Positions 8,091 to 19,448 of a stretch of DNA of 34,644 nucleotides are shown here, in pieces. The notes beneath the pieces are model-generated. The model saw only the letters and a list, made by a program, of their open reading frames with translations, searched no databases and had not been told where the DNA came from. A program made the position numbers and the translations under genes. Numbering within the stretch: position 1 is the stretch's first letter; each line of letters begins with the position of its first letter. This DNA is from a virus: positions 1 through 34,644 of IMG/VR virus record IMGVR_UViG_3300027759_000022; one strand, 5' to 3'.

Positions 8091-8220
8091 TTAATCCTTC
8101 ATTGTAAGATTGTAGAACTCCATCTTTAGTCGTTTTGTTGATCTTGCAACTTGTACAAGTTCTGATGGTAATTTGACTTGGCTTTCTTATCCAGTTCTTG
8201 CTGGAGTCGTTTTTTTGCAT
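8038..8220 (-). CDS. Small zinc-ribbon-like protein nested between two genes
   Basis: A 60-residue frame from ATG 8220 with two CxxC pairs: CTSC (22-25) and CQSC (49-52), the spacing of small zinc ribbons. The sequence around the pairs (polar, glycine-containing turn, ERFVCQSC) looks like a true protein rather than a shadow. It overlaps the regulator gene by 95 bp and the glycosyltransferase by 53 bp, and so would fill the gap between them. Function is unknown, perhaps nucleic-acid binding. The start is uncertain because of the overlap. Confidence 0.55.
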   Translation of the reverse strand: MQKNDSSKNWIRKPSQITIRTCTSCKINKTTKDGVLQSYNEGLNERFVCQSCHSNSDKTR

Positions 8221-8530
8221 TATGTAAATCTGTTTCTAATTTATGAGGTGTTGTTCTAGCATTATGCGCTAACTGGTTTAGTGAGGCATAAGGATGACTG
8301 ACATACCTCATTTTAAGCACTTGTCTTAACTGTAATGGCAAACCCTTAATTGCCTGCTCTATGAGATCTCCGTCTATATGGTCTGGCTCGTAGTGTGGCT
8401 CTGGGTCTGCGTATAAATTGCCCAGCTCTGGGACATAGTTCTTTTCAAAACTGCGACAAGTAGTTTCCACTTGTGGGCCAATAACTCCCCAAGTAACATA
8501 CCAAGCCCAATTTTTTAGCCTAGATTCCAT
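8126..8530 (-). CDS. Q-like/sigma region 4-like late regulator (putative)
   Basis: A 134-residue protein at the head of the late gene block. Its middle and C-terminal part (about 55-118: IEQAIKGLPLQLRQVLKMRY, then a helix-turn-helix-like LNQLAHNARTTPHKLETDLH) resembles sigma-70 region 4 and the phage antitermination Q-type proteins. Such proteins switch on late transcription. Position as first late gene with a divergent AT-rich promoter region upstream agrees. No DNA-binding zinc site is seen. Whether it acts by antitermination or activation cannot be told. Confidence 0.62.
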   Translation of the reverse strand: MESRLKNWAWYVTWGVIGPQVETTCRSFEKNYVPELGNLYADPEPHYEPDHIDGDLIEQAIKGLPLQLRQVLKMRYVSHPYASLNQLAHNARTTPHKLETDLHNAKKRLQQELDKKAKSNYHQNLYKLQDQQND

Positions 8531-8592
8531 GTTGTCATTTAATTTTAATTAATTTATTGTATTATATTCAATATCTTATGGCAAAGGTAGAT
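8531..8592. promoter_or_regulatory. Divergent AT-rich promoter region
   Basis: A very AT-rich interval between the late block (minus) and the metallophosphoesterase (plus). Minus strand: a consensus -10 TATAAT lies at 8561-8566, without a good -35. Plus strand: TTGTCA at 8532-8537, 17 bp, then TATTGT at 8555-8560. These are sequence matches only. Confidence 0.45.
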
Positions 8593-9576
8593 ATGAAACG
8601 ATCTAATGCAGCAGATGAGAAATTTATAGAGTGTTGGAAAAGACTTGGCTCTCCTACTTTAGTAGCAAAAGAGATAGGTATTAACCCTAGGAGCGCATTA
8701 AATAGACGAGCTGCGCTAGAGGCTCGCTATGACATTAAACTTCCAACTCATAACTCTATGAGAGATCCAAAAAAAGAAAAACTAAAAAAGATTGAACAAA
8801 CTCCGCACAATGTACGCAGAGGAATAGATATAGATAAAGTTAAGAGAGTTATTGTATTTAGCGATGCTCACTTTACAGATACCACTACTACAGCATTTAA
8901 AGCCCTATTATTAATGATTGATACCTTTAAGCCAGAGGTAATTATTTGTAATGGTGATGCTTTTGATGGACAAGTTCTTAGCCGTTTTCCATCTATTAAC
9001 TACGACCAAAAACCTACAGTTTTAGAGGAGCTTAATGCTTGTCGTTGGCATTTAGATGAAATAGAAAAACATAGACCGCCTGGCTGTCGTTTAATCTGGA
9101 CTCTTGGTAATCACGATATGCGCTACGAGGCTTGGCTAGTTAATAAAGTGCCTGAGTATTCTGGCGTAGATGGATTTAGCCTTAAGTATCATTTTCCTAA
9201 TTGGGAAACTTGTTGGTCATTTTGGATTGGGGAAAATACAGTAGTTAAGCACCGATATAAAGGTGGTCGTACTGCTGGATATTCCAACTTAGTTGGTGCT
9301 GGTGGATCTACCAACATCATTACTGGGCATACCCATGTATTGTGTTGTAGTCCGATAACTGGGTATCAAGGAACTTATTGGGGTATTCAGACTGGCTGCC
9401 TAGCTGATCCACATAGCTCTACCTTTGAATACTGCGAGGATAGCCCTAAAGATTGGCGTAGTGGCTTTGCAATGCTTTCATTCGATCAAGGCCGTATGCT
9501 AATGCCTGAGTTGATTATGGTTACAGATGAGCAGAATGGGGAGTTTGAATTTAGGGGATGTATCAATAAGGTATGA
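8593..9576 (+). CDS. Calcineurin-like metallophosphoesterase with N-terminal HTH
   Basis: A metal-dependent phosphoesterase with all core motifs: DAH (in VFSDAHFTD), GD (NGDAFDG), GNHD (LGNHDMR) and GHTH (ITGHTHV). The first 40-50 residues look like a helix-turn-helix (LVAKEIGINPRSALNRRAAL), a combination known in phage proteins. It probably acts on DNA or nucleotides. I prefer ATG 8593, because AAAGG lies 5 bp upstream of it; ATG 8578 or TTG 8557 would add 5 or 12 residues. It ends in an ATGA overlap with the SprT-like gene. Confidence 0.88.
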   Translation: MKRSNAADEKFIECWKRLGSPTLVAKEIGINPRSALNRRAALEARYDIKLPTHNSMRDPKKEKLKKIEQTPHNVRRGIDIDKVKRVIVFSDAHFTDTTTTAFKALLLMIDTFKPEVIICNGDAFDGQVLSRFPSINYDQKPTVLEELNACRWHLDEIEKHRPPGCRLIWTLGNHDMRYEAWLVNKVPEYSGVDGFSLKYHFPNWETCWSFWIGENTVVKHRYKGGRTAGYSNLVGAGGSTNIITGHTHVLCCSPITGYQGTYWGIQTGCLADPHSSTFEYCEDSPKDWRSGFAMLSFDQGRMLMPELIMVTDEQNGEFEFRGCINKV

Positions 9577-9920
9577 AGATAACACCTCTTATTCTTGAGA
9601 ATCTTTATCTCTGTATGGCATCGTGTCATCCTATGCGTAACTGGGATCTTCCACCACCAGAGCTAATTACTTTTAAGGTTACTAGGGAAAAAGATGCAAT
9701 GGCTACTTATCGTTTTGACGATGAAATAGAAAAGCCACATATCATCACCATTAGCAGATTAAAGAATGAACACTTTGATACTATTCAAAGAAGTTTAGCC
9801 CATGAGATAGTACACATGAGCTTTTGGAAAACAGGCGCATGGGATAAGCATGGCACAGCATTTAGAACTCGTACAAGGCAAGTAGCTAGGGAGTTTGGCT
9901 GGGACTCTCTAGAGCTTTAG
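9573..9920 (+). CDS. SprT-like zinc metallopeptidase domain protein
   Basis: A 115-residue protein with the HExxH zinc motif in SLAHEIVHMSFW (about 70-81), followed by GAWDKHGTAFRTRTRQVA, where the His provides the third ligand. This is the SprT-like fold. Cellular SprT/SPRTN proteins digest DNA-protein crosslinks; a phage role in DNA repair or recycling is inference. Its start overlaps the metallophosphoesterase stop (ATGA), so the two are co-translated. Its stop overlaps by 4 bp the stop of the convergent 58-residue gene. Confidence 0.85.
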   Translation: MKITPLILENLYLCMASCHPMRNWDLPPPELITFKVTREKDAMATYRFDDEIEKPHIITISRLKNEHFDTIQRSLAHEIVHMSFWKTGAWDKHGTAFRTRTRQVAREFGWDSLEL

Positions 9921-10093
9921 TGGCTGCCTTCGCTATTCTGATTTGCCAATAGCGACTTATACATCTTAGACTGATCCTCTAGATCTCGGATTAGTTTTAC
10001 GACCCTAAATAAGACTTCATTCTCATGCTGAGTTACTACCTTGCCTGTATATAGGTCTACTAGCTCATTGACTATTTTATTCGTTTCGTTCAT
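9917..10093 (-). CDS. 58-residue helical protein
   Basis: ATG at 10093 opens 59 codons to TAA 9917-9919. The product starts MNETNKIVNELVDLYTGK and is polar and helical, with no metal or membrane motif. It overlaps the end of the PAPS-reductase-like gene by 17 bp and so is likely the last gene of the middle operon. It is convergent with the SprT-like gene and the stops overlap by 4 bp. Function is unknown. Confidence 0.68.
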   Translation of the reverse strand: MNETNKIVNELVDLYTGKVVTQHENEVLFRVVKLIRDLEDQSKMYKSLLANQNSEGSH

Positions 10094-10826
10094 TTATATC
10101 ATCCTCTGCCATGTGGCAAAAAATACCGCACTCAATAGCTTGTTCTGTTGGGTAATCACCAGCTCCAATAGGAAGTTCTGTTAGCCAAATTCTTTCTCCT
10201 TTGTGCTTTAGGATTTTTGCCCCTATTGCTTTTTCTATATCAGCCATTTTATTAAATTGATCTGGGAAGTCATACCTTATTTTGTTCCAATATCCAAGCC
10301 CCCCCTTAACACATCCAATACAATTATTATTTTGGTAGCCCAGTTTATACATTGCTGGCAACTCTATCCCAGCACGATCAATCATAGCCAAACAATCAGA
10401 TTTGCCTAAACCTTTATCTATCAAAATAGACCATAGGTTTACATCGTTATTAGCATCTATAAACCTATCTACTCGATCTTGCTCCTCTGCTGTATATCCA
10501 AATACTTGAATATCCGTAGGTTGTTCAAACTGCTTTCTCATGTCTTTTTTAAGATGTACTGTACAAGGCGCACCACCTATACCTACAATGTATTTACGCT
10601 TTTCAAATACCTCGTAAATACTGCCATTGTATTTATCGTTTTGTATAACTTTTATTGACTGCCCAAACCACTTTTCACAATCTTTCATAAACCTTAGATT
10701 GTCTGGATGCTCCTCTTTTACATGGCAATAAACTACCTCTACTGGTGTTTTGCTTTCAGCAATAGCTAATTTAGTTGCAACTGCGCTTGCAGCTCCACAA
10801 CTAAACCAGCTAACTATTCGGCTCAC
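10077..10826 (-). CDS. PAPS reductase-family (PP-loop) protein
   Basis: A 249-residue ATP-pyrophosphatase-fold protein of the phosphoadenosine phosphosulfate reductase family. The PP-loop is at SWFSCGAASAVATKLA (6-21), a variant of SGGxxS; CIGCVKGG (about 169-176) supplies a CxxC pair in the C-terminal half. Members include sulfate-assimilation enzymes and DndC-type proteins that put sulfur on the DNA backbone. In phage genomes the substrate is usually unproven. GTG 10826 overlaps the upstream TGA (GTGA). The gene contains a run of seven G that is in frame. Confidence 0.82.
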   Translation of the reverse strand: MSRIVSWFSCGAASAVATKLAIAESKTPVEVVYCHVKEEHPDNLRFMKDCEKWFGQSIKVIQNDKYNGSIYEVFEKRKYIVGIGGAPCTVHLKKDMRKQFEQPTDIQVFGYTAEEQDRVDRFIDANNDVNLWSILIDKGLGKSDCLAMIDRAGIELPAMYKLGYQNNNCIGCVKGGLGYWNKIRYDFPDQFNKMADIEKAIGAKILKHKGERIWLTELPIGAGDYPTEQAIECGIFCHMAEDDINERNE

Positions 10827-11113
10827 TTATTTGCCTTTCCAAGTTTCTGACTGACTCGCTCCAGCAACTCCTCACAGGATATTTTGTATTCTCTTTCAAA
10901 ACGCTTGACACCCAATCCGTGAAGGCCATTGTTTCCCCTATGATGCTCTGGGCATAAAGGCAAGATCGGGGATGTAGCCCTAACAGCTCCAAATCTCCGC
11001 ACATGATGGAGTTCTGCTGGCGATCTGCTTTCAATCCCAAGGACTTCGGAGCATAAAATACATCCGAGTTCTGCAATCTTATTGAGTGCGTTCTTTTCAT
11101 TTTTAGTTGCCAT
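10823..11113 (-). CDS. Ref-like HNH-type nuclease
   Basis: A 96-residue protein resembling the P1 Ref (RecA-dependent nuclease) family. It has CILC (18-21), the PAELHHVRR segment (33-41) and ILPLCPEHHRG (50-60), together making the zinc-containing HNH-like core. Ref proteins cut DNA at RecA-bound displacement loops and raise recombination. It sits among recombination and modification genes. ATG 11113 overlaps the upstream TAA by one base (TAATG) and its own TGA overlaps the next GTG start. Confidence 0.83.
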   Translation of the reverse strand: MATKNEKNALNKIAELGCILCSEVLGIESRSPAELHHVRRFGAVRATSPILPLCPEHHRGNNGLHGLGVKRFEREYKISCEELLERVSQKLGKANK

Positions 11114-11439
11114 TATTGTGTAGCACGATCTATTGTACGATTAGTAGCCTCTTGACTGCGCCATATCTCTATTCTTGCTTGGGCTGCTATCAATTTCCAC
11201 CTTAATGTTTCCTCTACTTCTACAGCCTCTTTTAGCCCTTCTAAGAGCTTTACATAATCATCTGTAGCGTAGGCTTCCATCTCTTTAGCAGCAATGCTAG
11301 GAGCTGTAGATTCCAGCATGAGCCTACTTTTAGCAGATCGCAGATAGTTCTCTATATAAGTTCTATCTGCTTTGGCTGCTGCAAAGACTCCTGATTGTTC
11401 GTAGATAAATTGGACTGCTTTGCTCGGGTCAATTTCCAT
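11113..11439 (-). CDS. Conserved helical phage protein of the recombination operon
   Basis: A 108-residue helical protein starting MEIDPSKAVQFIYEQSG and ending ARIEIWRSQEATNRTIDRAT. I recognise this as a frequent phage protein that lies next to Ref-like and recombination genes, but no function is known. ATG 11439 lies 88 bp inside the upstream gene; this start is chosen because the N-terminal MEIDPSKAVQ pattern is the recurrent one. A coiled-coil or heterocomplex role is possible. Confidence 0.8.
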   Translation of the reverse strand: MEIDPSKAVQFIYEQSGVFAAAKADRTYIENYLRSAKSRLMLESTAPSIAAKEMEAYATDDYVKLLEGLKEAVEVEETLRWKLIAAQARIEIWRSQEATNRTIDRATQ

Positions 11440-11591
11440 TGTCTTTCCATTTCGTCTTTTAGTTTAAGTGTGGCTTCCCATCCACGCTTTTCTAATACTA
11501 AAGCTAGTTGTTTCCGTCTGGTTGCTATAGGCCATGTTAATAGCTCTCTAGCCTCACATTCGTTACGCCATTCCTGGCTATTTTTGTCCAT
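11352..11591 (-). CDS. Small conserved phage protein (DUF7696-like)
   Basis: A 79-residue protein whose N-terminal two thirds (ECEARELLTWPIATRRKQLA, 11-30, then an EKRGWEATLKLKDEM helix) match a small recurrent phage protein that accompanies C5 methyltransferase and recombination genes. Its ATG at 11591 overlaps the methyltransferase end by 14 bp and its tail overlaps the following gene by 88 bp. Function is unknown. Confidence 0.72.
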   Translation of the reverse strand: MDKNSQEWRNECEARELLTWPIATRRKQLALVLEKRGWEATLKLKDEMERQWKLTRAKQSNLSTNNQESLQQPKQIELI

Positions 11592-12611
11592 CTAACCTTT
11601 CTTTTAGCAAGTTAAATGCTGTTGCTGCACAAAGTGGCACTTGTCCATTTCCAATGGCTTTAAGTCTGTCCAGCCTAGCGGCCACCCCATTAGCCACTCG
11701 ACCCAAGGGGGGTTCAACTGACCAGAATTCTGATCTACCGATTGACTCAGCATAATTTGTTTGCCTTTGGCAATTCTTCGCTGAATTGAAGGGTTGCTCA
11801 TATTTCCCCTGTCCCTGTTGTCTGACGCTTGAGGCGTTGGAAACATTCTTTTGACTACTGCTTCCATTAATGTTCCCTGTCCCCTCTCCCTGCTGTTCAT
11901 TAAATCCAATGTTGCGCCTACTGTTTGACTTGTTACTGATGGGCTGGAAACTGGTGTAGGCCATGTTGGATTTTTCATATCCTTGCAAGGCATCTTTCCT
12001 GAGTAAATCACTTGTTCCGCTAGATTGCCAGGTTGAACTGTATTGTGTCCCTGCGATTCCCTTTGTTTCGTTCTGTATTCCATTGCTTTTTGACTCCGAC
12101 CAGAAATTGCTGTTGCTGTTGGAGTAAGCCAGTATCCAAATTCGCTCTCTTTTGTGGTTCGCTCCAACATCGGCTGCGGATAACACTCCCCACTCCGCAT
12201 CGAACCCCATTTGGGCCAAATCTCTAAGGACTGTACCAAGTCCTCTAGAAGTGAGCATTGGGGAATTTTCCACAAAAGCGTATTTTGGTCTAACTTCGCC
12301 AATGATTCTTGCCATTTCTTTCCACATTCCTGATCGCTCTGCCTCGATTCCCCCCCCCTTCCTGCTGCGGATATGTCTTGACAGGGAAATCCCCCAGATA
12401 CAACATCAACAATTCCTTGCCAAGGTTTTCCGTCAAAGGTTTGAACATCATCCCAAATTGGGAAACTCGGCAAAAGTCCGTCATTTTGTCTGGCACACAA
12501 TACGCTTGCTGGGTATTGCTCCCATTCGACTGCACAGACTGTTCTCCATCCAAGGAGATGTCCCCCAAGTATTCCACCACCAGCGCCTGCGAAAAGAGCC
12601 AACTCATTCAC
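11578..12611 (-). CDS. C5 cytosine DNA methyltransferase, needs a -1 frameshift at a G9 run
   Basis: Methylates cytosine in DNA, probably protecting phage DNA from host restriction. GTG 12611 starts the first half: motif I LALFAGAGGGILGG (4-17) and motif IV with the catalytic Cys in GGFPCQDIS (73-81, Cys77). The rest lies in the -1 frame: the ERSG segment, motif VI FVENSP, motif VIII HKRERI, and C-terminal motifs IX/X with KAIGNGQVP near the end. The frames join at nine G (12350-12358). One extra G, or a -1 ribosomal slip, gives a 344-residue protein reading GRGGGIEAERSG across the junction, as the family expects. GTG overlaps the upstream TGA. An assembly or sequencing error in the homopolymer is the main alternative. 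Confidence 0.85.
11604..12611 (-). CDS. Zero-frame product: methyltransferase N-terminus with alternative C-terminal half
   Basis: Reading the same GTG without frameshift gives 335 residues: about 87 shared ones (motifs I and IV) and then about 248 from the frame that overlaps the methyltransferase C-terminus. This second part has its own order: WKIPQCSLLEDL and WPKWGSMRSGEC (about 114-143), three WLTP, WPTP and FPTP repeats, and a tryptophan-rich end LNPPWVEWLMGWPLGWTDL. It resembles segments I recall in other phage methylase annotations, which I could not check. It could be a second protein, or a tolerated by-product of the other frame. It lacks motifs VI, VIII, IX and X, so it should not methylate alone. 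Confidence 0.45.
   Translation of the reverse strand: MNELALFAGAGGGILGGHLLGWRTVCAVEWEQYPASVLCARQNDGLLPSFPIWDDVQTFDGKPWQGIVDVVSGGFPCQDISAAGRGGESRQSDQECGKKWQESLAKLDQNTLLWKIPQCSLLEDLVQSLEIWPKWGSMRSGECYPQPMLERTTKESEFGYWLTPTATAISGRSQKAMEYRTKQRESQGHNTVQPGNLAEQVIYSGKMPCKDMKNPTWPTPVSSPSVTSQTVGATLDLMNSRERGQGTLMEAVVKRMFPTPQASDNRDRGNMSNPSIQRRIAKGKQIMLSQSVDQNSGQLNPPWVEWLMGWPLGWTDLKPLEMDKCHFVQQQHLTC
12350..12358. other. Nine-G run at the frame junction of the methyltransferase
   Basis: Nine C on the plus strand (nine G in the mRNA), in the zero frame as AGG GGG GGG GAA. This contains G GGG GGG, which fits the X XXY YYZ rule for -1 ribosomal slippage. Such a tract can also change length by slipped-strand replication; ten or seven G would put the full methyltransferase in one frame. 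Confidence 0.9.
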
Positions 12612-13000
12612 ACTTGCTCCTCTAGCTGTTTAAGTCGCTGGCTAATCCTAGCTCTCCATTGCTGCCATCCTTCGCCTGCATAAGCCTGAACTCCTATCTC
12701 TTGAGCTTTTTTCATTGTGAGTTCTTCTGAGCTATACCAAGGCAACTCAGGGCGTTTATTTACCTTTGGTTCTTCTATTACAATATGATCTTCGAACCTA
12801 TATTGATTGAGCCAAGTCGTACAATGTGGCACATAATCTAGCTCAGTATTCTTTGCTTTCCAATATGCAACATGGTTTGGCAAAGCCTCTACTGCTTGCT
12901 CTCGCTCTGCTGGCGTTAGCTTGTAAAAGCTACGATGCGCCATCCGCTTGCTAACTTTCCTAGGATATAAACTCCAGAACTGCTCAAATAAATCTGACAT
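12608..13000 (-). CDS. Phage replication-type protein (primosome/O-like domain)
   Basis: A 130-residue protein starting MSDLFEQFWSLYPRKVSKRM. The FEQFW-x-YPRK-x-x-K segment followed by helices and VPHCTTWLNQYRFED (about 57-71) is the small domain found at the end of many phage replication proteins (DnaT, O-like). It may recruit the host helicase; no helicase, polymerase or loader is otherwise encoded. I choose ATG 13000 rather than an earlier start at 13030, because GGAG stands 5 bp upstream of it. The TGA overlaps the methyltransferase GTG. Confidence 0.7.
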   Translation of the reverse strand: MSDLFEQFWSLYPRKVSKRMAHRSFYKLTPAEREQAVEALPNHVAYWKAKNTELDYVPHCTTWLNQYRFEDHIVIEEPKVNKRPELPWYSSEELTMKKAQEIGVQAYAGEGWQQWRARISQRLKQLEEQV

Positions 13001-13010
13001 TATTGCTCCT

Positions 13011-13250
13011 TCACGAGTAATAGACACCAACTACATAAAAAAATACTGCTACAAATTCTACAATGAACAATGGTATATCCTCTTGGTATATACCAACTAA
13101 CGCCCAGATCGCACTACCTATTAAACCAAAATGAAGGTTGATTGGGTAGAAATTTAATGAGGTGAGAAATATCCCGATCAAACACAGGATTGTTCCGATC
13201 CACTTTGCTACCTTCAGTCTGTTCCAGGCGTTTTCTTTCAGCAACTTCAT
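13011..13250 (-). CDS. Small membrane protein, three hydrophobic segments
   Basis: A 79-residue protein with a charged N-terminus (MKLLKENAWNRLKVAK) and hydrophobic stretches near residues 17-32, 40-53 and 58-77, so two or three inner-membrane helices. I recognise it as a recurrent small phage membrane protein of unknown function. ATG 13250 has AAGGAG 10 bp upstream. It precedes the replication-type gene by 10 bp. A different 54-residue frame covers part of the same DNA and is thought to be a shadow. Confidence 0.75.
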   Translation of the reverse strand: MKLLKENAWNRLKVAKWIGTILCLIGIFLTSLNFYPINLHFGLIGSAIWALVGIYQEDIPLFIVEFVAVFFYVVGVYYS

Positions 13251-13274
13251 GTAAAAAAATCTCCTTAAATTTTT

Positions 13275-13379
13275 TCATTTGTTTCTCCAATATCTATCTT
13301 TAGGATTAGCAAGCATTGATTTGATAAGCTGATCTACATTAGAAAACCATTGGACTACTTTCATGCCATCATGCTGCAT
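13275..13379 (-). CDS. Possible 34-residue ORF
   Basis: ATG 13379 to TGA 13275-13277, filling the 140-bp gap between the membrane protein and the 76-residue gene. The product (MQHDGMKVVQWFSNVDQL...) looks protein-like but is short and unrecognised. A GAG-containing sequence upstream is a weak ribosome site. Confidence 0.35.
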   Translation of the reverse strand: MQHDGMKVVQWFSNVDQLIKSMLANPKDRYWRNK

Positions 13380-13390
13380 GATTGTAAAAC

Positions 13391-13621
13391 TCACTTCTCT
13401 TGTGCTTTCCAAATGATAAACGCTCTATTTTCTCCACGCTCATTAATAAATTTAAGCATGGACTCTAATTGAACAAGTAAAGACTCTATTTCACATTTTT
13501 GCTTTCGTACACTAATAAGCAGACCTTCTTTTGTAAATTTTTCATATCCATCATTAGATAGTTCGTTTGCGTTCATTTCATCTATATCTACATATCCAGC
13601 AAAAGGTATTGGCTCTAACAT
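13391..13621 (-). CDS. Unknown 76-residue protein
   Basis: A small acidic protein, MLEPIPFAGYVDIDEMNANEL at the start and a helical region in the middle (about 30-65, KQKCEIESLLVQLESMLKFI). No recognised domain, membrane segment or metal site. Its start is at 13621, directly after the stop of the preceding 110-residue gene, which suggests one transcript. Function unknown. Confidence 0.6.
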   Translation of the reverse strand: MLEPIPFAGYVDIDEMNANELSNDGYEKFTKEGLLISVRKQKCEIESLLVQLESMLKFINERGENRAFIIWKAQEK

Positions 13622-13954
13622 TTAGACTCCTAAAGTTTTATTACTACGCATGGCTAAAAGTTCTTTATCTAAACCTTGCTCTGGCTTATAGGAGAGCAGC
13701 TCTAATCTGTCGGATGTGCAACAGTCGCTACCTTTGTAGCAAGTGCCTGTAATGGCATCCATTATTAACCCTGTTTTATGCTCGTCTGTCCCAAAGAACA
13801 CAGGCGTACAGATAATCTCGCCAAGGTTAGTAGTTCCCCTGTAGAGAACTCTATTCTTTAGCCAATCGAGCTTAAGGGATCTTTTTTGCCAAGTAGGAAA
13901 ACAACTGCTGGCATCGGCACATAGACCAGTCATGGATTTTCTAATTTCTCTCAT
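13622..13954 (-). CDS. Unknown 110-residue protein, first gene after an operator-bearing promoter
   Basis: A 110-residue protein with five scattered cysteines (Cys12, Cys18, Cys49, Cys72, plus CC at 78-79 in SDCCTSDRLE) and no recognised domain. ATG 13954 lies only about 8 bp after the -10 hexamer of the promoter at 13962-13991, so the transcript may be leaderless; the internal ATG at 13933 is the alternative. It probably heads the operon running to 9917. Confidence 0.58.
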   Translation of the reverse strand: MREIRKSMTGLCADASSCFPTWQKRSLKLDWLKNRVLYRGTTNLGEIICTPVFFGTDEHKTGLIMDAITGTCYKGSDCCTSDRLELLSYKPEQGLDKELLAMRSNKTLGV

Positions 13955-13961
13955 AACTTAG

Positions 13962-13991
13962 ATCTTAATCTACAAATCTACATAAATGCAA
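13962..13991 (-). promoter_or_regulatory. Middle-operon promoter with TGTAGA half-sites in the spacer
   Basis: Minus strand: -35 TTGCAT (13986-13991), 18-bp spacer, -10 TAAGAT (13962-13967). Two TGTAGA direct repeats, 8 bp apart (13969-13974 and 13977-13982 as TCTACA on plus), lie in the spacer and the layout matches the early promoter at 15586-15615. A repressor bound here would block RNA polymerase. Confidence 0.65.
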
Positions 13992-14057
13992 GTGTTTTAT
14001 TTATTAAAGTTTCATGCAGTTTTATAGGGGAATATGTACACAAAACGGCTTAATTTG

Positions 14058-14079
14058 TACATATAGATATTAATATGTA
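14058..14079. repeat. Inverted repeat, TACATAT/ATATGTA arms
   Basis: Seven-base arms with an 8-base spacer in the intergenic region behind the 14103 glycosyltransferase stop and upstream of the 13954 gene. It could be an operator or just AT-rich noise. Confidence 0.4.
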
Positions 14080-14102
14080 TACGAAATCAACATTTATAGG
14101 TA

Positions 14103-14720
14103 CTAAGATGCCCATTTTTTTGTATAGGCTTCCATAGCCTCTGCATAGCCACTAATTTTATTAACATCCATTGGTGTGCTAGTAAAGTGAGTAATCATTC
14201 TGTAGCCATCTTTTACGCAAAAGTTCTTTTTACCTTGTTTTTCCATTTGCTTGCAGATGTCTTGATCGTATAAATGAAAGCCTGGTATAGACTCGTCAAA
14301 CCGCACATCTTGGTAAGTAGCCAGCATAAGGCCATCTAGGTGCAGGCAAAACTCCTTGCCATCGTTAAAGTAGAGTATTCCATTGCGAGAATCTACAACG
14401 CTACCAACGCATTGTCCTTCCCACCAAGGAGAGGCATCTGTCTGGCTGCCTATGATCCCTACCATGCCAATCTCATCTATGCAATAAGCTATCAGATTCA
14501 TGCGTAAAAGAATTGGATTGGTAACAATAAGATCGTGGTGAATAAAGCATTTAATTTTATTCTTAGCTTTGTCTATGCCTGTGTTATACCCCTCTGCAAT
14601 AGACTTAGCGTTCTCTACAACAATCAACTCATCGTCATCTTTTAGGATAAGAGATTGCGCCAAACATTTTTCAAATATCTTTTTATTGTGCGTACAAGTA
14701 ATGTAGCTAATTGATTCCAT
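14103..14720 (-). CDS. Glycosyltransferase, GT2-like (Glyco_tranf_2_5 type)
   Basis: A 205-residue protein. Its start (MESISYITCTHNKKIFEKCL) and the CFIHHDLIV motif (about 58-66, in place of the usual FIHQD) match the Glyco_tranf_2_5 group of GT-A transferases. An acidic FHLYDQDICKQME segment (about 147-159) resembles the catalytic region. It is separate from the other two glycosyltransferases of this genome and lies within the middle block; its target could be host surface sugar or modified DNA. An AT-rich upstream region (14721-14780) probably carries its promoter. Confidence 0.72.
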   Translation of the reverse strand: MESISYITCTHNKKIFEKCLAQSLILKDDDELIVVENAKSIAEGYNTGIDKAKNKIKCFIHHDLIVTNPILLRMNLIAYCIDEIGMVGIIGSQTDASPWWEGQCVGSVVDSRNGILYFNDGKEFCLHLDGLMLATYQDVRFDESIPGFHLYDQDICKQMEKQGKKNFCVKDGYRMITHFTSTPMDVNKISGYAEAMEAYTKKWAS

Positions 14721-14751
14721 AGTCTTAATTTATATATAAGTATTTATATAT

Positions 14752-14770
14752 GTATATACATTGTATATAC
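14752..14770. repeat. Two GTATATAC palindromes with 11-bp period
   Basis: GTATATAC occurs at 14752-14759 and 14763-14770, each palindromic, starting 11 bp (about one helical turn) apart, upstream of the 14720 glycosyltransferase. This may be an operator; no protein is assigned. Confidence 0.4.
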
Positions 14771-15001
14771 CTATGTATTAGTCTTTAGTAAGGTTACTGC
14801 TCTTTCGGTGAACGAACCTAGCCTACCTAGATTCGCCTTCATCTGCTCCATCGGAGTTACAGAACCCGCCAGACTTTCAAGGAGTAGGCTCTGGCTTCGC
14901 CACCTACTTTGTGCTGTTTCATCCCTTACCCCCAGTAGCACTATTATCCTAAATCCCTGGTATGTCGTTAGAGCCTCGAACTTAGGAAATCGTATCTTAC
15001 A
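14771..15001. other. Gap of 230 bp: GC-rich, hairpin-rich; possible structured RNA or 56-residue ORF
   Basis: No convincing long gene. On the minus strand it has a 5-bp plus 4-bp nested stem (GTAGG/CCTAC around TGGC-GAA-GCCA, about 14884-14907), CTCC-GAT-GGAG and AGTAA-CC-TTACT hairpins. A minus-strand frame from GTG 14941 to TAG 14771-14773 gives 56 residues (VLLGVRDETAQSRW start) but has no recognised domain. The GC content is above the AT-rich flanks. Confidence 0.4.
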
Positions 15002-15313
15002 TCACATCTCAAACTCTTTGCAAGCCCATCTTCCATTAGGCTGCTTAAACCATCCTATAACCAAAATCTTCCACCCAGACCGCACCAGCTCTGGCAAGAA
15101 TTCAGACTCGGAGATCTTCTTAATTCTAGATGACATATTGCTTTTGCTAGTGATCTGGATGCCTACTGTTTCCCCATTGCCAATAGCCAAAATGTCGAAA
15201 ATGGAGAATAGGTCTTTTTTGCGCCTAGTGAAAGCGTTATAACTTTCTACTACATCGCATTTATAGCCCCTAGACTCCATAAGAGCGACTGTACGGACAT
15301 TTTGACTAGCCAA
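15002..15313 (-). CDS. Small nuclease-like protein (restriction endonuclease-like fold, putative)
   Basis: A 103-residue protein with FTRRKKDLFSIFDILAI (28-44), GETVGIQITS (47-56) and KILVIGWFKQPNGRW (83-97). The D-L-F-x-x-F-D and G-x-Q-x-T pattern resembles small PD-(D/E)XK or VRR-NUC-like phage proteins, with Gln-Ile-Thr in place of the usual E-x-K. It may process recombination intermediates or be inactive. Its start overlaps the repressor gene by 8 bp, so it is co-expressed. The frame stays open past the TGA, but known relatives end at such a C-terminus, so I treat TGA as the true stop. Confidence 0.62.
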   Translation of the reverse strand: MASQNVRTVALMESRGYKCDVVESYNAFTRRKKDLFSIFDILAIGNGETVGIQITSKSNMSSRIKKISESEFLPELVRSGWKILVIGWFKQPNGRWACKEFEM

Positions 15314-15512
15314 GGTCGTTCTCTGTCAATCTTCCTTCTGATGCCTCTATGATCGCTGTATGCCACTTCTTAGGGATGCCATTCCGCATCTTCCAGGCAT
15401 AGGCCGTTACATACTTAACCCCTATCTTTTCGCATAGGATCTTGATAGTCCCAAATTCGGTCATCAATTTGTCGAATGAACTATTCTGTGGCAGATTTAC
15501 AACAGTATTCAT
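15306..15512 (-). CDS. Small HTH repressor, Cro/YdaS-like
   Basis: A 68-residue protein with a helix-turn-helix at about 22-45 (GTIKILCEKIGVKYVTAYAW). It lies divergently to the early operon, the classical site of a Cro- or CI-type regulator. It should bind the TGTAGA-containing operators at 15524-15543 and 15595-15608 and perhaps 13969-13982 (inference). ATG 15512 has GGAG with about 7-bp spacing. There is no second repressor or cleavage domain. Confidence 0.75.
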   Translation of the reverse strand: MNTVVNLPQNSSFDKLMTEFGTIKILCEKIGVKYVTAYAWKMRNGIPKKWHTAIIEASEGRLTENDLG

Positions 15513-15523
15513 ATATGCTCCTT

Positions 15524-15543
15524 TGTAGACATTTTATTCTACA
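15524..15543. promoter_or_regulatory. Operator candidate, TGTAGA-N8-TCTACA
   Basis: Inverted repeat with six-base arms and 8-base spacer, overlapping possible -10 hexamers of the repressor gene on the minus strand (TAGAAT 15536-15541 or TAAAAT 15531-15536; -35 TTGCAC 15557-15562, non-ideal spacing). This would allow self-repression of the HTH gene. Confidence 0.55.
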
Positions 15544-15585
15544 CCATCCTAAAACTGTGCAAAAAAGCAACACTCAAAAATATAT

Positions 15586-15615
15586 TTGCAAATCTCTACA
15601 TTTGTAGATTAATAT
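15586..15615 (+). promoter_or_regulatory. Early promoter with TCTACA-TT-TGTAGA operator in the spacer
   Basis: Plus strand: -35 TTGCAA (15586-15591), 18-bp spacer, -10 TAATAT (15610-15615). The palindrome at 15595-15608 (six-base arms, TT centre) sits within the spacer. The expected start near 15622 leaves a leader of about 38 bases to the first gene. Confidence 0.7.
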
Positions 15616-15639: not shown

Positions 15640-15660
15640 ACTCGTGAAGGAGTACAAAAT
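15640..15660 (+). promoter_or_regulatory. Repeated ribosome-binding leader, copy 1
   Basis: A 21-bp block containing GAAGGAG, identical to 15890-15910. It places the Shine-Dalgarno 7-8 bp before a TTG start. Two copies in front of two small early genes suggest a duplicated translation leader. Confidence 0.75.
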
Positions 15661-15857
15661 TGAAAACATTTAAATGGGTAGTAGAGTTTGAGGTTACATC
15701 TACTTGGGTAGAAGATGGTTTTAACATCGACCAAGGCAGAGCAACAGATATGATTGCAAATGCGTTACCTTTTGCTAGTGGAGCAGAGTTTAAAGCAACA
15801 GTTAAAAAAGCTCCTGATGCAAAACTGATACGCAGAACTCAAGGTTATAACGATTAA
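15660..15857 (+). CDS. Conserved small early phage protein
   Basis: A 65-residue protein with a TTG start at 15660, with GAAGGAG and a 7-bp spacer. The sequence (MKTFKWVVEFEVTSTWVEDG, later ALPFASGAEFKATVKKAPDAKLIRRTQGYND) is a recurrent early phage protein of unknown function; I recall homologues with the same alternation of beta strands and the ending P-D-A-K-x-I-R. A hairpin terminator follows (15864-15885), so it may be expressed separately from the next genes. Confidence 0.78.
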   Translation: MKTFKWVVEFEVTSTWVEDGFNIDQGRATDMIANALPFASGAEFKATVKKAPDAKLIRRTQGYND

Positions 15858-15863
15858 TTAACA

Positions 15864-15885
15864 CTCCCCTTCGGGGGAGATTTTT
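15864..15885 (+). terminator. Rho-independent terminator or attenuator
   Basis: A 6-bp GC stem CTCCCC/GGGGAG closed by a TTCG tetraloop and followed by A and five T (15881-15885). It follows the first early gene directly and should reduce transcription into the next genes unless read through. Confidence 0.88.
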
Positions 15886-15889
15886 GAAC

Positions 15890-15910
15890 ACTCGTGAAGG
15901 AGTACAAAAT
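15890..15910 (+). promoter_or_regulatory. Repeated ribosome-binding leader, copy 2
   Basis: Identical to 15640-15660, here leading to ATG 15909. Similar but diverged GGAG or GAAGGA leaders precede 16181 and 16476. Confidence 0.75.
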
Positions 15911-16004
15911 GAAAGACTTTATTTTAGGTGGCTTACTAGGTTTTGTAATCGTAGCTTTTGTAATTAGTGTCTATGGCTTTCGTATTGGTGTTTATACAAT
16001 ATGA
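15909..16004 (+). CDS. 31-residue single-pass membrane peptide
   Basis: ATG 15909 with a strong ribosome site encodes MKDFILGGLLGFVIVAFVIS and 11 more residues, one membrane-spanning helix. Its TGA overlaps the next ATG (ATGA), pairing it with the lipoprotein gene. Function unknown. Confidence 0.75.
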   Translation: MKDFILGGLLGFVIVAFVISVYGFRIGVYTI

Positions 16005-16180
16005 GAGCTTTAGTCCTTATCCTAGCAATCTCTTTAGTGGGATGTGCGCCAATCCCAATTAAACGCTATAAGACCGATGTAGTAGATCAAACGCCTTGCT
16101 ATAAGACTAATGATTGTCCTATGCAGAACCCCCCAGCGTTTTTGTTCTACAACAACTTTAACAATTCGTGGAGAAGATAA
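16001..16180 (+). CDS. Small lipoprotein (lipobox)
   Basis: A 59-residue product starting MRALVLILAISLVGCAPIPI: short basic start, hydrophobic segment and lipobox LVGC with Cys15 as the acylated residue. After it comes a short polar tail with Cys33 and Cys39. It should be anchored in the outer or inner membrane. Coupled by ATGA to the 31-residue membrane peptide. In early operons such lipoproteins can block superinfection, which is only an analogy here. It is not a typical Rz1, as it lies far from the lysis genes. Confidence 0.8.
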   Translation: MRALVLILAISLVGCAPIPIKRYKTDVVDQTPCYKTNDCPMQNPPAFLFYNNFNNSWRR

Positions 16181-16462
16181 ATGTACAACAACAATTCTTA
16201 TTATGAAGCCCCATACGATGACCAGGCAGAGCAAGAGCAACTAGATGAGCGCTTGTACGATGCAGTCAAGAATGACCCTGAGTTTGACCCTACAGACCTA
16301 GGTAATTTTGCTGAGGCTATTGGGCAAGATGTAGACGATACAGATCTACAAGAGTTTATTCGTGATTGCGTAGCAAGAAAAGATTGGGAAGCCCTAGGCC
16401 GTAAGCTGTATTACCATAGCTGGGCTTACATGGAAAAAGTAGCAGAGATCCGATTAACATAG
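16181..16462 (+). CDS. Acidic early protein of unknown function
   Basis: A 93-residue protein, strongly acidic (many D and E, for example FDPTDLGNFAEAIGQDVDDTD near 36-56) and helical. GGAGAAG stands before ATG 16181. I recognise it as a recurrent small phage protein, but no role is known. It lies between the lipoprotein and ERF genes in the early operon. Confidence 0.75.
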   Translation: MYNNNSYYEAPYDDQAEQEQLDERLYDAVKNDPEFDPTDLGNFAEAIGQDVDDTDLQEFIRDCVARKDWEALGRKLYYHSWAYMEKVAEIRLT

Positions 16463-16475
16463 TGAAGGAATCAAA

Positions 16476-17039
16476 ATGTCAGTATTTATTAAACTAAACA
16501 AAGCAAGAATCAAACTACAAAACACAGAGCTTACAAAGTCTGGTCATAACAAGTTTGCTGGATACAAGTATTTTGAGCTGGGGGACTTTTTGCCTACAGT
16601 ACAAAGTATCTTTAGCGAACTAGGTCTTTGTGGGATTGTGTCGTATGGCGTAGATATTGCCAGCCTTACCATTGTAGATACAGAGGATAATAGCAACATT
16701 GTTATTACATCCCCAATGGGATCAGCAGCTCTAAAAGGCTGCCATGAAGTGCAGAATATTGGCGCAGTAGAAACTTATCAGCGCAGATACTTATGGGTTA
16801 CTGCAATGGAAATTGTAGAACACGATGCGCTAGATTCTAGCGAAGGTGTAGACGAGTCTGGGGAGTTGAGCAAGCATATTAAGGGAATACAGGCAAGCCA
16901 AAGCCCTGCCGAACTCAAGGTGGCCTTTGCTCAATCTTACAAGAAATACAAGGGAAACGCTAAGTTTTTAGATGCTATCACTAACGCATACAACGACATG
17001 AAAGCCCAATTTAATGAGATTAGCGCAGGAGCAGCCTGA
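16476..17039 (+). CDS. erf: ERF-family single-strand DNA annealing protein
   Basis: A 187-residue recombinase of the ERF (P22) superfamily. The conserved stretch includes GHNKFAGYKYFELGDFLP (23-40) and GAVETYQRRYLWVTAMEI (about 96-113), where the Q-R-R-Y motif is a hallmark. ERF proteins form rings and pair complementary single strands. It acts with the YqaJ-type exonuclease downstream (18061) and the SSB-like protein (18698). GAAGGA lies before ATG 16476. Confidence 0.88.
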   Translation: MSVFIKLNKARIKLQNTELTKSGHNKFAGYKYFELGDFLPTVQSIFSELGLCGIVSYGVDIASLTIVDTEDNSNIVITSPMGSAALKGCHEVQNIGAVETYQRRYLWVTAMEIVEHDALDSSEGVDESGELSKHIKGIQASQSPAELKVAFAQSYKKYKGNAKFLDAITNAYNDMKAQFNEISAGAA

Positions 17040-17211
17040 TAATGTTTGCTCCCCTTGTGGTAGCACCTGGGGAGTCCATAAACCAAAGGATCACCAATAC
17101 AGAATATGGGTGGACAAATGCGATGTATGTTTAGATACGAGAGCCGTATGCGATGCGTCAGAATTCGGTTATTTAAAGGAAGGCTGGGATGGACAGAAAG
17201 TGGTGTGTTAG
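17014..17211 (+). CDS. Zinc-ribbon-like small protein
   Basis: A 65-residue protein with CSPC (12-15) and CDVC (36-39) pairs and a final Cys. It overlaps the end of the ERF gene by 26 bp. The compact two-CxxC arrangement with DATEFGY-like sequence (DASEFGYLKEGW) is a recurring phage zinc ribbon. It could bind DNA or help recombination proteins; no direct evidence. Start chosen as ATG 17014 because no later in-frame start exists before the first CxxC. Confidence 0.65.
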   Translation: MRLAQEQPDNVCSPCGSTWGVHKPKDHQYRIWVDKCDVCLDTRAVCDASEFGYLKEGWDGQKVVC

Positions 17212-17326
17212 TTGTCAAGTTCTACGACCAGCTAGTGATTTTAAGTTGGTGAAGATTAACAAAGTAAGCAGATGGAAATGTGGAGTTTGTTTAAAACGAG
17301 AGGCAGATAGAAAATATGGAAAATAA
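17189..17326 (+). CDS. 45-residue zinc-finger-like protein
   Basis: ATG 17189, with AAGGAAGG upstream, encodes a 45-residue protein with CVSC (6-9) and CGVC (32-35). It overlaps the previous zinc-ribbon gene by 23 bp and the next gene by 11 bp. A second small zinc protein in tandem in the early operon; function unknown. Confidence 0.72.
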   Translation: MDRKWCVSCQVLRPASDFKLVKINKVSRWKCGVCLKREADRKYGK

Positions 17327-17525
17327 CTTTATTTATACCCCAAGCTCTACAGATATAGAGATACGCTGGAGAAAGCAGCATGGCTATGTGCCAGCTAGTG
17401 AGCAAGAGTTCTACAAGAAAAAGTGGGCAGATTTTAAAGCAGAATTTGCTCGTACTTTAGACGATCAGCCCAAAAAGCTAACGCCTAATGATGCAGCCGT
17501 TTATCAATGGAGAAAACGAAAGTGA
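17316..17525 (+). CDS. Small basic early protein
   Basis: A 69-residue protein, MENNFIYTPSSTDIEIRWRK start and basic C-terminus (YQWRKRK). The IRWRKQHGYVPASEQEFYKKKW pattern is typical of small phage proteins of unknown function. It starts within the preceding zinc-finger gene (11-bp overlap). Confidence 0.7.
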   Translation: MENNFIYTPSSTDIEIRWRKQHGYVPASEQEFYKKKWADFKAEFARTLDDQPKKLTPNDAAVYQWRKRK

Positions 17526-17722
17526 TTAATAAAAAGTGCCTTGAGGCTTTTAATAAGTTATCTGAGCCTGTATATCATCCACAAGAGTATTTTATGCTTG
17601 GATGGAACGCTGCGATAGATGCCTTATCTGCTGAGTTTTCTCGCAAATGGGAGATGAACGAATTAGAAGATATTGATTTTATTGTTCAGCCAGACCAAAA
17701 GCCAATGCACGATGACGAGTGA
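17522..17722 (+). CDS. Small early protein, GTG start
   Basis: A 66-residue protein (MINKKCLEAFNKLSEPVYHP). The GTG at 17522 overlaps the upstream TGA (GTGA) and has GGAG 9 bp upstream; ATG 17507 would lengthen it by 5 residues and overlap more. YFMLGWNAAIDALSAEF (about 24-40) is a pattern of small host-interaction-type phage proteins, with no known function. Confidence 0.68.
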   Translation: MINKKCLEAFNKLSEPVYHPQEYFMLGWNAAIDALSAEFSRKWEMNELEDIDFIVQPDQKPMHDDE

Positions 17723-17909
17723 ATGGTATCCTTTATGCTACCCATCAAGAAGGGATTACAAGGCTTGGCTGTACCTAAGAGATCATGCCCAAGAAGTAGT
17801 CAATATTTGCGATGATTGCACAAAAGATTACATGGAATTAATGCAGAAAAAGAACCGATGCGACCAGGCAAAGGCACAAAAACTAACTACGAATAGCAAA
17901 AAAATATGA
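17712..17909 (+). CDS. Small early protein with CxxC
   Basis: ATG 17712 gives 65 residues (MTSEWYPLCYPSRRDYKAWL), with Cys9, CDDC (about 33-36) and a later Cys. The start inside the previous gene's end (11 bp) is preferred over 17673. CDDC might bind metal. Function unknown. Confidence 0.65.
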   Translation: MTSEWYPLCYPSRRDYKAWLYLRDHAQEVVNICDDCTKDYMELMQKKNRCDQAKAQKLTTNSKKI

Positions 17910-18064
17910 CAGATTATTCAGAAGTTTACATAGAGATTAACCAAGTTCTTAAAAGCTACTATAACCATGAAACAAAAAATAACCATGAACGAGCTGCTCA
18001 AGCTGCAAACGAGGTAGCAACATTGGCAGAGCATCTTAAATTCTTAGCAGAGGCCAAACTATGA
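17906..18064 (+). CDS. 52-residue helical early protein
   Basis: ATG 17906 overlaps the previous TGA (ATGA), and its own TGA overlaps the exonuclease ATG 18061. The product is polar and helical (MTDYSEVYIEINQVLKSYYN start, later RAAQAANEVATLAEHLKFLA). Such a small protein directly before the exonuclease may assist it, but that is only a guess. Confidence 0.72.
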   Translation: MTDYSEVYIEINQVLKSYYNHETKNNHERAAQAANEVATLAEHLKFLAEAKL

Positions 18065-18708
18065 CCACTTTCACAACGGATGACAGAATAGCCGTAGAGC
18101 AGGGTACGGATGCTTGGCATCAACTTAGGCTGGGCAAGGTTACTGCTAGTCGTATGGCAGATGTGCTAAGTAAAGGGAAGTCTGGGGAGTCTGCGAGTCG
18201 TACCAAATATCGTACGGAATTGGTAGTCCAAAGGCTTATAGGGTTGCCAAGCGAGTCTTTTACCAATGCTGCAATGGAATGGGGTACACAAACTGAGCCA
18301 ATGGCTAGGGTAGCGTATGAGGTTGCAAAAGGCAACTTTGTAGAACAAGTAGCTTTTATGGATCATCCTACAATTAAGTGGTTTGGATGTAGCCCAGATG
18401 GACTTGTGGGGAATGGTCTGATTGAGATTAAGTGTCCCAATAGTAGTACCCATATAGATTATTTGATGGATGGCAAACCGCCAGCAAAGTATATCCCTCA
18501 GATGCAATGCCAGATGGCTGTAACAGGGTCTAGGTGGTGCGATTTCGTATCATTTGACCCTAGGCTACCAGATGACTTGCAACTGTTTGTAGTGCGCCTT
18601 GAGAGGGATGAGGAGTATATCAAGGCAATGGAAGTAGAAGTAGAGAAGTTCTTAAGCGAGGTCGAAGATACATTAACTAAATTGAAAGCGAGAAAAAATG
18701 GCCTATGA
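18061..18708 (+). CDS. YqaJ/lambda-Exo-type DNA exonuclease
   Basis: A 215-residue PD-(D/E)XK exonuclease. Conserved pieces are GTDAWHQLRLGKVTASR (15-31), MEWGTQTEPMAR (about 79-90), GCSPDGLV (about 117-124) and LIEIKCP (about 128-134), where the Asp and E-x-K residues bind the catalytic metal. It digests one DNA strand to give the single-stranded DNA that ERF anneals. The early ERF and exonuclease pair replaces lambda Beta and Exo. Confidence 0.9.
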   Translation: MTTFTTDDRIAVEQGTDAWHQLRLGKVTASRMADVLSKGKSGESASRTKYRTELVVQRLIGLPSESFTNAAMEWGTQTEPMARVAYEVAKGNFVEQVAFMDHPTIKWFGCSPDGLVGNGLIEIKCPNSSTHIDYLMDGKPPAKYIPQMQCQMAVTGSRWCDFVSFDPRLPDDLQLFVVRLERDEEYIKAMEVEVEKFLSEVEDTLTKLKARKNGL

Positions 18709-18958
18709 AATGAAAGATGGCAACTTTAGCCTATTCAAGAATAATCGTAAGGAAAAAGAAACACATCCTGATTATGCTGGATCAATAATGATTAACGGCA
18801 AAGAGCATTACCTTAACGCCTGGTTAAAAGATGGCAAGAATGGTAAGTTCTTTTCTGGATCAGTCGGCAAGGAAAAACCGCCAAAGGATAACTTTAAGCC
18901 TAGTGGTGGAGATGAGCTGCCAAAGAATACAATCGAGGATGACGAAGTACCATTTTAA
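18698..18958 (+). CDS. Single-strand DNA-binding-like protein
   Basis: An 86-residue protein ending in an acidic tail DDEVPF, like the DDDIPF tip of bacterial SSB that recruits DNA enzymes. The rest (about 1-60) is beta-rich with SLFKNNR, HPDYAGSIMING and GKFFSGSVG segments, compatible with a small OB-like or DUF736-type fold. It overlaps the exonuclease by 11 bp, a natural partner for the annealing system. Confidence 0.75.
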   Translation: MAYEMKDGNFSLFKNNRKEKETHPDYAGSIMINGKEHYLNAWLKDGKNGKFFSGSVGKEKPPKDNFKPSGGDELPKNTIEDDEVPF

Positions 18959-18965
18959 TTAACAG

Positions 18966-19448
18966 ATGAGATCGGCATTAACCTTCACGAAGGAGAGCCA
19001 GCGCCCTACCGATTACGCTGGCAAACGCTTTGACCAAGCATTGCACGATAAGTACGATCCACCAGCTAGGAAAGTTGTATCCGAATGGATGCAAATGAAA
19101 TGGGGATTAGAGTGCAGGGAAAACCCTAATGTGTATGGAGTAGATTTAATCGCCTACAGAGCAGGAAATCCAGTTGGCTTTGTTGAAGTTGAAGTACGGG
19201 GCTGGAGCTTTTGCCACCATACCACCATTCATATAGCGCATCGTAAAGCAAAATTGTTTCTACAAGATCGCCCTGTTCTATTTTTTGCACTAACTCACGA
19301 CTTAAGTCATGCGTACTGGCTGAAAGCTGAGTTGGTGAAAAAGTGTCCATTGATAAAGGTCAATAATAGGGAAGTCCCTAGTGGGGAGTTCTTTTTTGAT
19401 GTCCCTGTCAGTTGGTTTAAGTATGTTAATTTAACAGACCCATTTTAA
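18966..19448 (+). CDS. Putative nuclease-like early protein
   Basis: A 160-residue protein with GVDLIAYRAGNPVGFVEVEV (about 58-77), reminiscent of a PD-(D/E)XK core, D-(X)n-E-x-E in place of E-x-K. The assignment is weak. ATG 18966 has no good ribosome site. It is the last early gene and converges on the lysozyme gene with 4 bp of stop overlap. Confidence 0.6.
   Translation: MRSALTFTKESQRPTDYAGKRFDQALHDKYDPPARKVVSEWMQMKWGLECRENPNVYGVDLIAYRAGNPVGFVEVEVRGWSFCHHTTIHIAHRKAKLFLQDRPVLFFALTHDLSHAYWLKAELVKKCPLIKVNNREVPSGEFFFDVPVSWFKYVNLTDPF

Follow-up and report, generated by a model that had tools for sequence, protein, structure and literature searches.

A TGTAGA half-site at three promoters and within the genes of an uncultured phage group that encodes a Cro-like protein

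In the virus record IMGVR_UViG_3300027759_000022 (positions 1 to 34,644; this whole stretch of 34,644 bases is referred to as the window), recombination genes on the plus strand and replication and late-regulator genes on the minus strand are transcribed away from a region that encodes a small helix-turn-helix (HTH) protein. The question that this locus raises is whether that one protein reads the promoters on both sides as well as its own, and by which sites it might do so. The original prediction, made from the window alone, held that it could control early, 'middle' and its own transcription. The features concerned are listed in Table 1.

Table 1. Coordinates of promoters, candidate operators, genes and TGTAGA hexamers in the window
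Feature	Position	Strand	Description
Early P-left-like promoter	15586-15615	+	-35 TTGCAA 15586-15591; 18-bp spacer; -10 TAATAT 15610-15615
Candidate operator in plus-promoter spacer	15595-15608		TCTACA-TT-TGTAGA, convergent inverted half-sites; TCTACA 15595-15600, TGTAGA 15603-15608
Second, P-right-like promoter	13962-13991	-	-35 TTGCAT 13991-13986; 18-bp spacer; -10 TAAGAT 13967-13962
Candidate operator in minus-promoter spacer	13969-13982	-	TGTAGA-TT-TGTAGA, direct repeat; TGTAGA (reverse strand) 13982-13977 and 13974-13969
Third candidate operator, in the promoter and leader of the repressor gene	15524-15543		TGTAGA 15524-15529, TCTACA 15538-15543; outward, 8-bp gap
Likely repressor-gene promoter	15536-15563	-	TTTGCA 15563-15558; 16 bp; TAGAAT 15541-15536; 9/12 to the sigma-70 consensus
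Cro-like, putative repressor gene, 68 aa	15306-15512	-	predicted recognition helix at about residues 34-43 (YVTAYAWKMR)
103-aa gene that overlaps the repressor gene's end	15002-15313	-	no family match
Operon from the plus promoter	15660-19448	+	small early genes and recombination genes
ERF recombinase	16476-17039	+	
YqaJ exonuclease	18061-18708	+	
SSB	18698-18958	+	
Gene stretch downstream of the minus promoter	8126-13954	-	putative single transcript
Replication initiation protein	12608-13030	-	
C5 DNA methyltransferase	11604-12611	-	
Ref-like	10823-11113	-	
PAPS-reductase-like	10077-10826	-	
Sigma region-4/Q-like, 134 aa	8126-8530	-	weak sigma region-4 matches
TGTAGA/TCTACA hexamers, 68	416-34507	both	about 55-56 inside genes

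The plus and minus promoters had been proposed with 18-bp spacers and with nearly the same bases from the spacer to the -10, and both were recovered exactly where they had been placed. Their shared sequence ATTTGTAGATTA has exactly two occurrences in the window, one at each promoter; a search for the 21-mer TGTAGATTTGTAGATTAAGAT that allowed up to 3 mismatches likewise gave 2 matches in the window, again the two promoters, and 0 in shuffles. Both promoters score poorly against the sigma-70 consensus (8/12 each) and are absent from the consensus-based promoter list, but conservation in relatives supports them: the pattern TTGC[AG]-N18-TA[AG][TG]AT of the minus promoter was found in 14 of 14 distinct relative sequences, and the -35 TTGCNA of the plus promoter in 15 of 18. 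The underlying comparison was anchored on the half-sites, the -35 and -10 not being part of the anchor.

Within the two spacers the promoter-proximal half-site is identical and the upstream half-site takes an equal position. The claim that both promoters share one operator design holds in this respect; it fails for the orientation of the upstream half-site: the minus promoter has TGTAGA there, a direct repeat, and the plus promoter has TCTACA, which makes its pair inverted. This difference is consistent in many relatives. The third pair, which had been located over the start region of the repressor, was found in place upstream of the HTH gene. The -10 of the likely repressor-gene promoter, for which the -35 assignment is uncertain, overlaps one of its half-sites, as autoregulation predicts, and TGTAGAAT at this promoter is kept in nearly all relatives. 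The two promoter pairs have the spacing TA-N6-TA, and the leader pair has TA-N12-TA. Because the hexamer is common in the window (68 copies vs 21 expected), single copies of TGTAGA mean little, and the case for operators is built on the clustering of half-sites and their conservation, not on single hexamers: three noncoding pairs at most 14 nt apart were observed vs 0.007 expected, and 0 of 1000 resamplings of the window's noncoding DNA reached 3.

The same small HTH gene was found in about 140 related viral contigs (70 by a search with the protein, a few more with a profile and 74 with a divergent profile), and the phage group as a whole comprises at least 599 terminase relatives. The motif search in related genomes that had been suggested as a check shows the half-sites kept at all three places while the flanking DNA varies; upstream of the HTH gene this variation extends to the gene with which the divergent operon begins. 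Most relatives have a gap of 7 or 8 in the leader pair; the half-site next to the ribosome-binding site (RBS) is absent from some. Divergent relatives (about 60% protein identity) carry 4 to 6 half-sites in new arrangements, with the protein stretch KYVTxYAWxMRN unchanged, and in the sister clade the same hexamer forms direct repeats (gaps 4, 5, 10 or 14) as well as the outward RBS pair. Since direct, inverted and outward pairs occur with varied gaps, the unit appears to be the single half-site and not one rigid palindrome, and its reader might be a monomer or else a dimer that is flexible or cooperative. A rigid 14-bp palindrome was considered as the operator and rejected, given that relatives conserve direct repeats and pairs with other gaps just as well. 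No prophage relatives were found in bacterial genomes by the sequence patterns used, and the search for annotated phages close by HTH sequence gave none that were useful. The extended RBS leader CTCGTGAAGGAGT is repeated before two plus-strand early genes of the window (15641-15653 and 15891-15903), and in relatives it stands before different first genes, as if flanking exchangeable cassettes.

The AF2 model of the HTH protein (pLDDT 76) has five helices, of which helix 3 is the invariant stretch, and its best fold match is Xfaso1 Cro (Z 10.3, rmsd 1.2 over 59 residues), with further matches to N15 Cro (Z 7.2) and P22 Cro (Z 7.2; range 7.1-7.2); Z values of 7-10 are suggestive only for a small helical domain. 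The predicted model agrees with the description of an all-alpha Cro (about 60-70 aa, five helices, HTH formed by helices 2-3), and the gene occupies the position of a cro gene, at divergent early promoters and upstream of replication and Q-like genes. No curated Cro/CI family was matched: Pfam YdaS_toxin and Phage_CI_repr stayed below the cut-off, as did NCBIfam carph-isopro (35.7 bits vs 38), PHROGs likewise gave weak HTH matches only, and the PDB profile match to Cro 3bd1 was weak (E 0.29). It is by fold and gene position, and not by a significant sequence match, that the assignment as an all-alpha Cro-like protein is supported. Within the protein, conservation is highest in the recognition helix, which is nearly invariant across the two clades; this matches the invariance of the TGTAGA half-site and supports this protein as its reader.

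Around this gene, the 103-aa gene that overlaps its end co-occurs with it in relatives and probably encodes, judged by eye, a PD-(D/E)XK-type nuclease, and the 134-aa protein encoded at the far end of the minus-strand stretch is likely a Q-like late regulator; genes at 8557-9920 lie on the opposite strand to that stretch. A glycosyltransferase-like gene (14103-14720) separates the repressor operon from the minus promoter and is flanked by AT-rich, partly palindromic TGTATATACA-like repeats (14049-14081 and 14724-14756), and in some relatives TATATACATTGTCTATACA is found immediately upstream of the minus promoter. No integrase or CI was present among the proteins of the window that were scanned (a subset of the ORFs), and no tyrosine integrase (PF00589) in nine relatives; the combination of a CI-type repressor and an integrase that characterizes a lambda-type immunity region was not found in this set.

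Relatives that carry another Cro, or none, provide a comparison. G009, with a terminase 76% identical, has the replication, YqaJ and Q genes and lacks cro; its divergent region contains a 91-aa nuclease-like gene in the place of cro and no intergenic half-site cluster. Such clusters were also absent from the near-complete G005, G006 and G007, which lack this Cro. In Methylophilales phage Venkman EXVC282S and Podoviridae sp. ctXG6705 (terminases 60% and 63% identical), a small HTH protein annotated as Cro is encoded at the same place as in the window, but its recognition helix differs, and the switch of Venkman carries CTCTAGA repeats rather than TGTAGA. In ctXG6705 this Cro lies between erf/exo on one side and the replication and Q genes on the other, and the order in the annotated relatives, with Cro beside erf/exo, the replisome organiser and Q, is that of the window. 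The half-sites thus track the cro gene, their clusters being absent in G009 and G005-G007 and the repeats different in Venkman, which points to the Cro-like protein as the reader.

Given the conserved half-sites, the Cro-like fold and gene position, the invariant recognition helix and the contrasts with G009 and Venkman, we consider it highly probable that the protein is an autoregulated Cro-type repressor, predicted to bind TGTAGA, that acts on the recombination operon, on the replication/late-regulator operon and on itself; the proposal of one small HTH regulator for early, 'middle' and own transcription is in this sense supported by sequence, fold and gene order. We infer binding to TGTAGA, repression on binding and the timing as follows. 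Early in infection, host polymerase would drive all three promoters. The 68-residue all-alpha protein, as it accumulates, would read the half-site TGTAGA, of which there are two in the 18-bp spacer of the recombination-operon promoter, two in that of the replication/late-regulator promoter and two at its own promoter (one on the -10, the second beside the RBS), and by occluding the spacers and -10 elements it would turn early transcription off and cap its own synthesis. Such a shutdown would parallel that by lambda Cro at OL, OR and PRM.

TGTAGA could instead be read by another protein, either a host regulator or another phage protein, with the Cro-like gene merely one of its targets. The location of the half-sites in long 18-bp spacers would suit such a reader, MerR-type activators also binding in long promoter spacers, and direct repeats misfit a simple Cro dimer. 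However, no half-site clusters are found where cro is missing (G009, G005, G006, G007), the repeats differ where the recognition helix differs (Venkman), and a half-site lies at the -10 of cro itself, all of which makes another reader improbable. There is likewise little likelihood, in our judgement, that the protein represses at the inverted repeat of the plus promoter and serves as an activator or dual regulator at the direct repeat of the minus promoter: the consistent difference in upstream orientation and the weakness of both promoters by consensus would agree with such a division of roles, but in both spacers the half-sites extend up to the -10, a position typical of repression, and the promoter-proximal half-site is the same.

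The early switch, read as the control region of an autoregulated Cro-type repressor, would be a variant of lambda OL/OR. Lambda resembles the window in its small Cro, in operators that lie inside the early promoters on both sides and at the promoter of the regulator, and in recombination genes that are transcribed one way and replication and late-regulator genes the other way; N15 and P22 Cro have the all-alpha fold that is predicted here. The switches of lambda, N15, phiKO2 and P22 differ from that of the window, where no CI or integrase was found among the scanned proteins, and lambda-type operators have one palindrome length, unlike the direct, inverted and outward pairs with varied gaps seen here. 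The operators of N15 and phiKO2 are 16 bp with TA-N10-TA, and phiKO2 Cro binds one operator only (PMC4997575); TA-N10-TA was not found in the three pairs of the window. With this switch, an abundant uncultured freshwater phage group would gain a defined early control region with a testable operator code, in which one half-site is reused in several geometries.

The recurrence of TGTAGA inside genes is potentially a new property. The plain excess of the hexamer in the window was rejected as proof of function, since synonymous-codon shuffles already expect about 29 copies in genes and relatives that lack the gene show an excess in two frames as well. Compared with such shuffles, coding copies are enriched in every usable frame: the window's clade has 574 where 273 are expected (2.1x) and the sister clade 447 where 160 are expected (2.8x). 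The one-base neighbours of the hexamer are mostly without excess; TGTAGA ranks 1/2080 hexamers in the sister-clade genomes and about 8th to 13th in the window itself. For conservation, the expected retention was taken as each codon's observed retention at amino-acid-identical positions. By this measure 67 of 85 copies are conserved in the sister clade vs 33.0 expected (rank 1/606 hexamers) and 116 of 131 in close pairs of the window's clade vs 89.2 expected (rank 1/1128), with over-conservation in every frame in both sets, and in more distant pairs of the window's clade the hexamer ranks 8/850 and 27/608.

Codon-context or compositional bias alone, independent of any regulator, might produce such a pattern, and we regard this as unlikely, though deserving of some weight. 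It would account for the two frames that are in excess without this Cro and for the excess in ctXG6705 (1.73x) and Venkman (1.55x), which have other Cros, and other hexamers, e.g. AGAACT, score similarly in the window's clade. With the two codon-biased frames set aside, however, relatives that lack this Cro (seven plus eighteen contigs) have ratios of 0.84 and 0.76, vs 1.67 for the window, 1.66 for its clade and 2.86 for the sister clade; G009, without cro, stands at 1.2x, and bias would leave unexplained both the mostly unenriched single-base neighbours and the rank 1 conservation beyond codon expectation, which was not seen in the negative control (small, 13 sites; rank 254/1159).

A constraint on TGTAGA at the DNA level is therefore likely, and the identity of the intragenic copies with the operator half-site suggests that the Cro-like protein reads them too. 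That the half-site is a genome-wide mark, with some 50-100 TGTAGA per 35-kb genome, intragenic and on both strands, held by purifying selection and bound by the repressor, is a tentative proposal to which we give slightly less than an even chance. The intragenic copies are isolated, without orientation bias or pairing, and spread about randomly; a longer motif or a concealed second half-site around them was looked for and none was found, nor any flanking preference. Dispersed copies could form a reservoir through which repression depends on genome copy number, act as elongation blocks or be a DNA-organising signal. A titrating reservoir fits because the copies are random in orientation and position, but the strong conservation per site would be surprising for a pure reservoir, and there may be local effects. 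Dispersed copies of their own switch repeats were not seen in G005, G015, Venkman and ctXG6705, CTCTAGA of Venkman not being in excess genome-wide.

Scattered asymmetric operators are known from phage P1, where C1 operators are dispersed over the phage genome; these are longer, are located at promoters and are read by a larger repressor. Cluster A mycobacteriophages (L5/Bxb1-type) carry more than 20 stoperators, 13-mers in promoters and short intergenic spaces, which follow the direction of transcription and are bound by a 183-aa repressor with two domains (PMC9283540, PMC6550527). They share with the window one asymmetric repressor motif repeated genome-wide; in the phages studied here, by contrast, about 50-100 hexamers are mostly intragenic and the putative reader is a one-domain protein of 59-68 aa, and a stoperator system was rejected for the window on account of the two orientations and the mostly intragenic location. 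The literature that we searched contained no dispersed Cro half-sites and no precedent with a Cro repressor. If the intragenic copies are bound, a repressor of 60-70 residues would mark a whole genome. These phages, in which no integrase was detected, would then have dispersed operators served by a minimal repressor of one domain, and copy-number-dependent repression would be directly testable in them.

Some other hexamers also stood out. AGAACT/AGTTCT, for which we know of no operator, is over-represented in coding sequence of the window's clade (42 vs 18.9) and is the most over-conserved hexamer in its distant pairs (55/76 vs 28.0). AAGCTT is missing from the window genes (0 vs 32 expected by codon shuffling), and CTCTTC, GGAGGT and CCTCCA are avoided too, perhaps as host restriction or RBS-like sequences. 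In G007 (L245, L246), which is without this Cro, CCGCA-core hexamers are in strong excess in coding sequence (e.g. TCCGCA, 69 vs 20).
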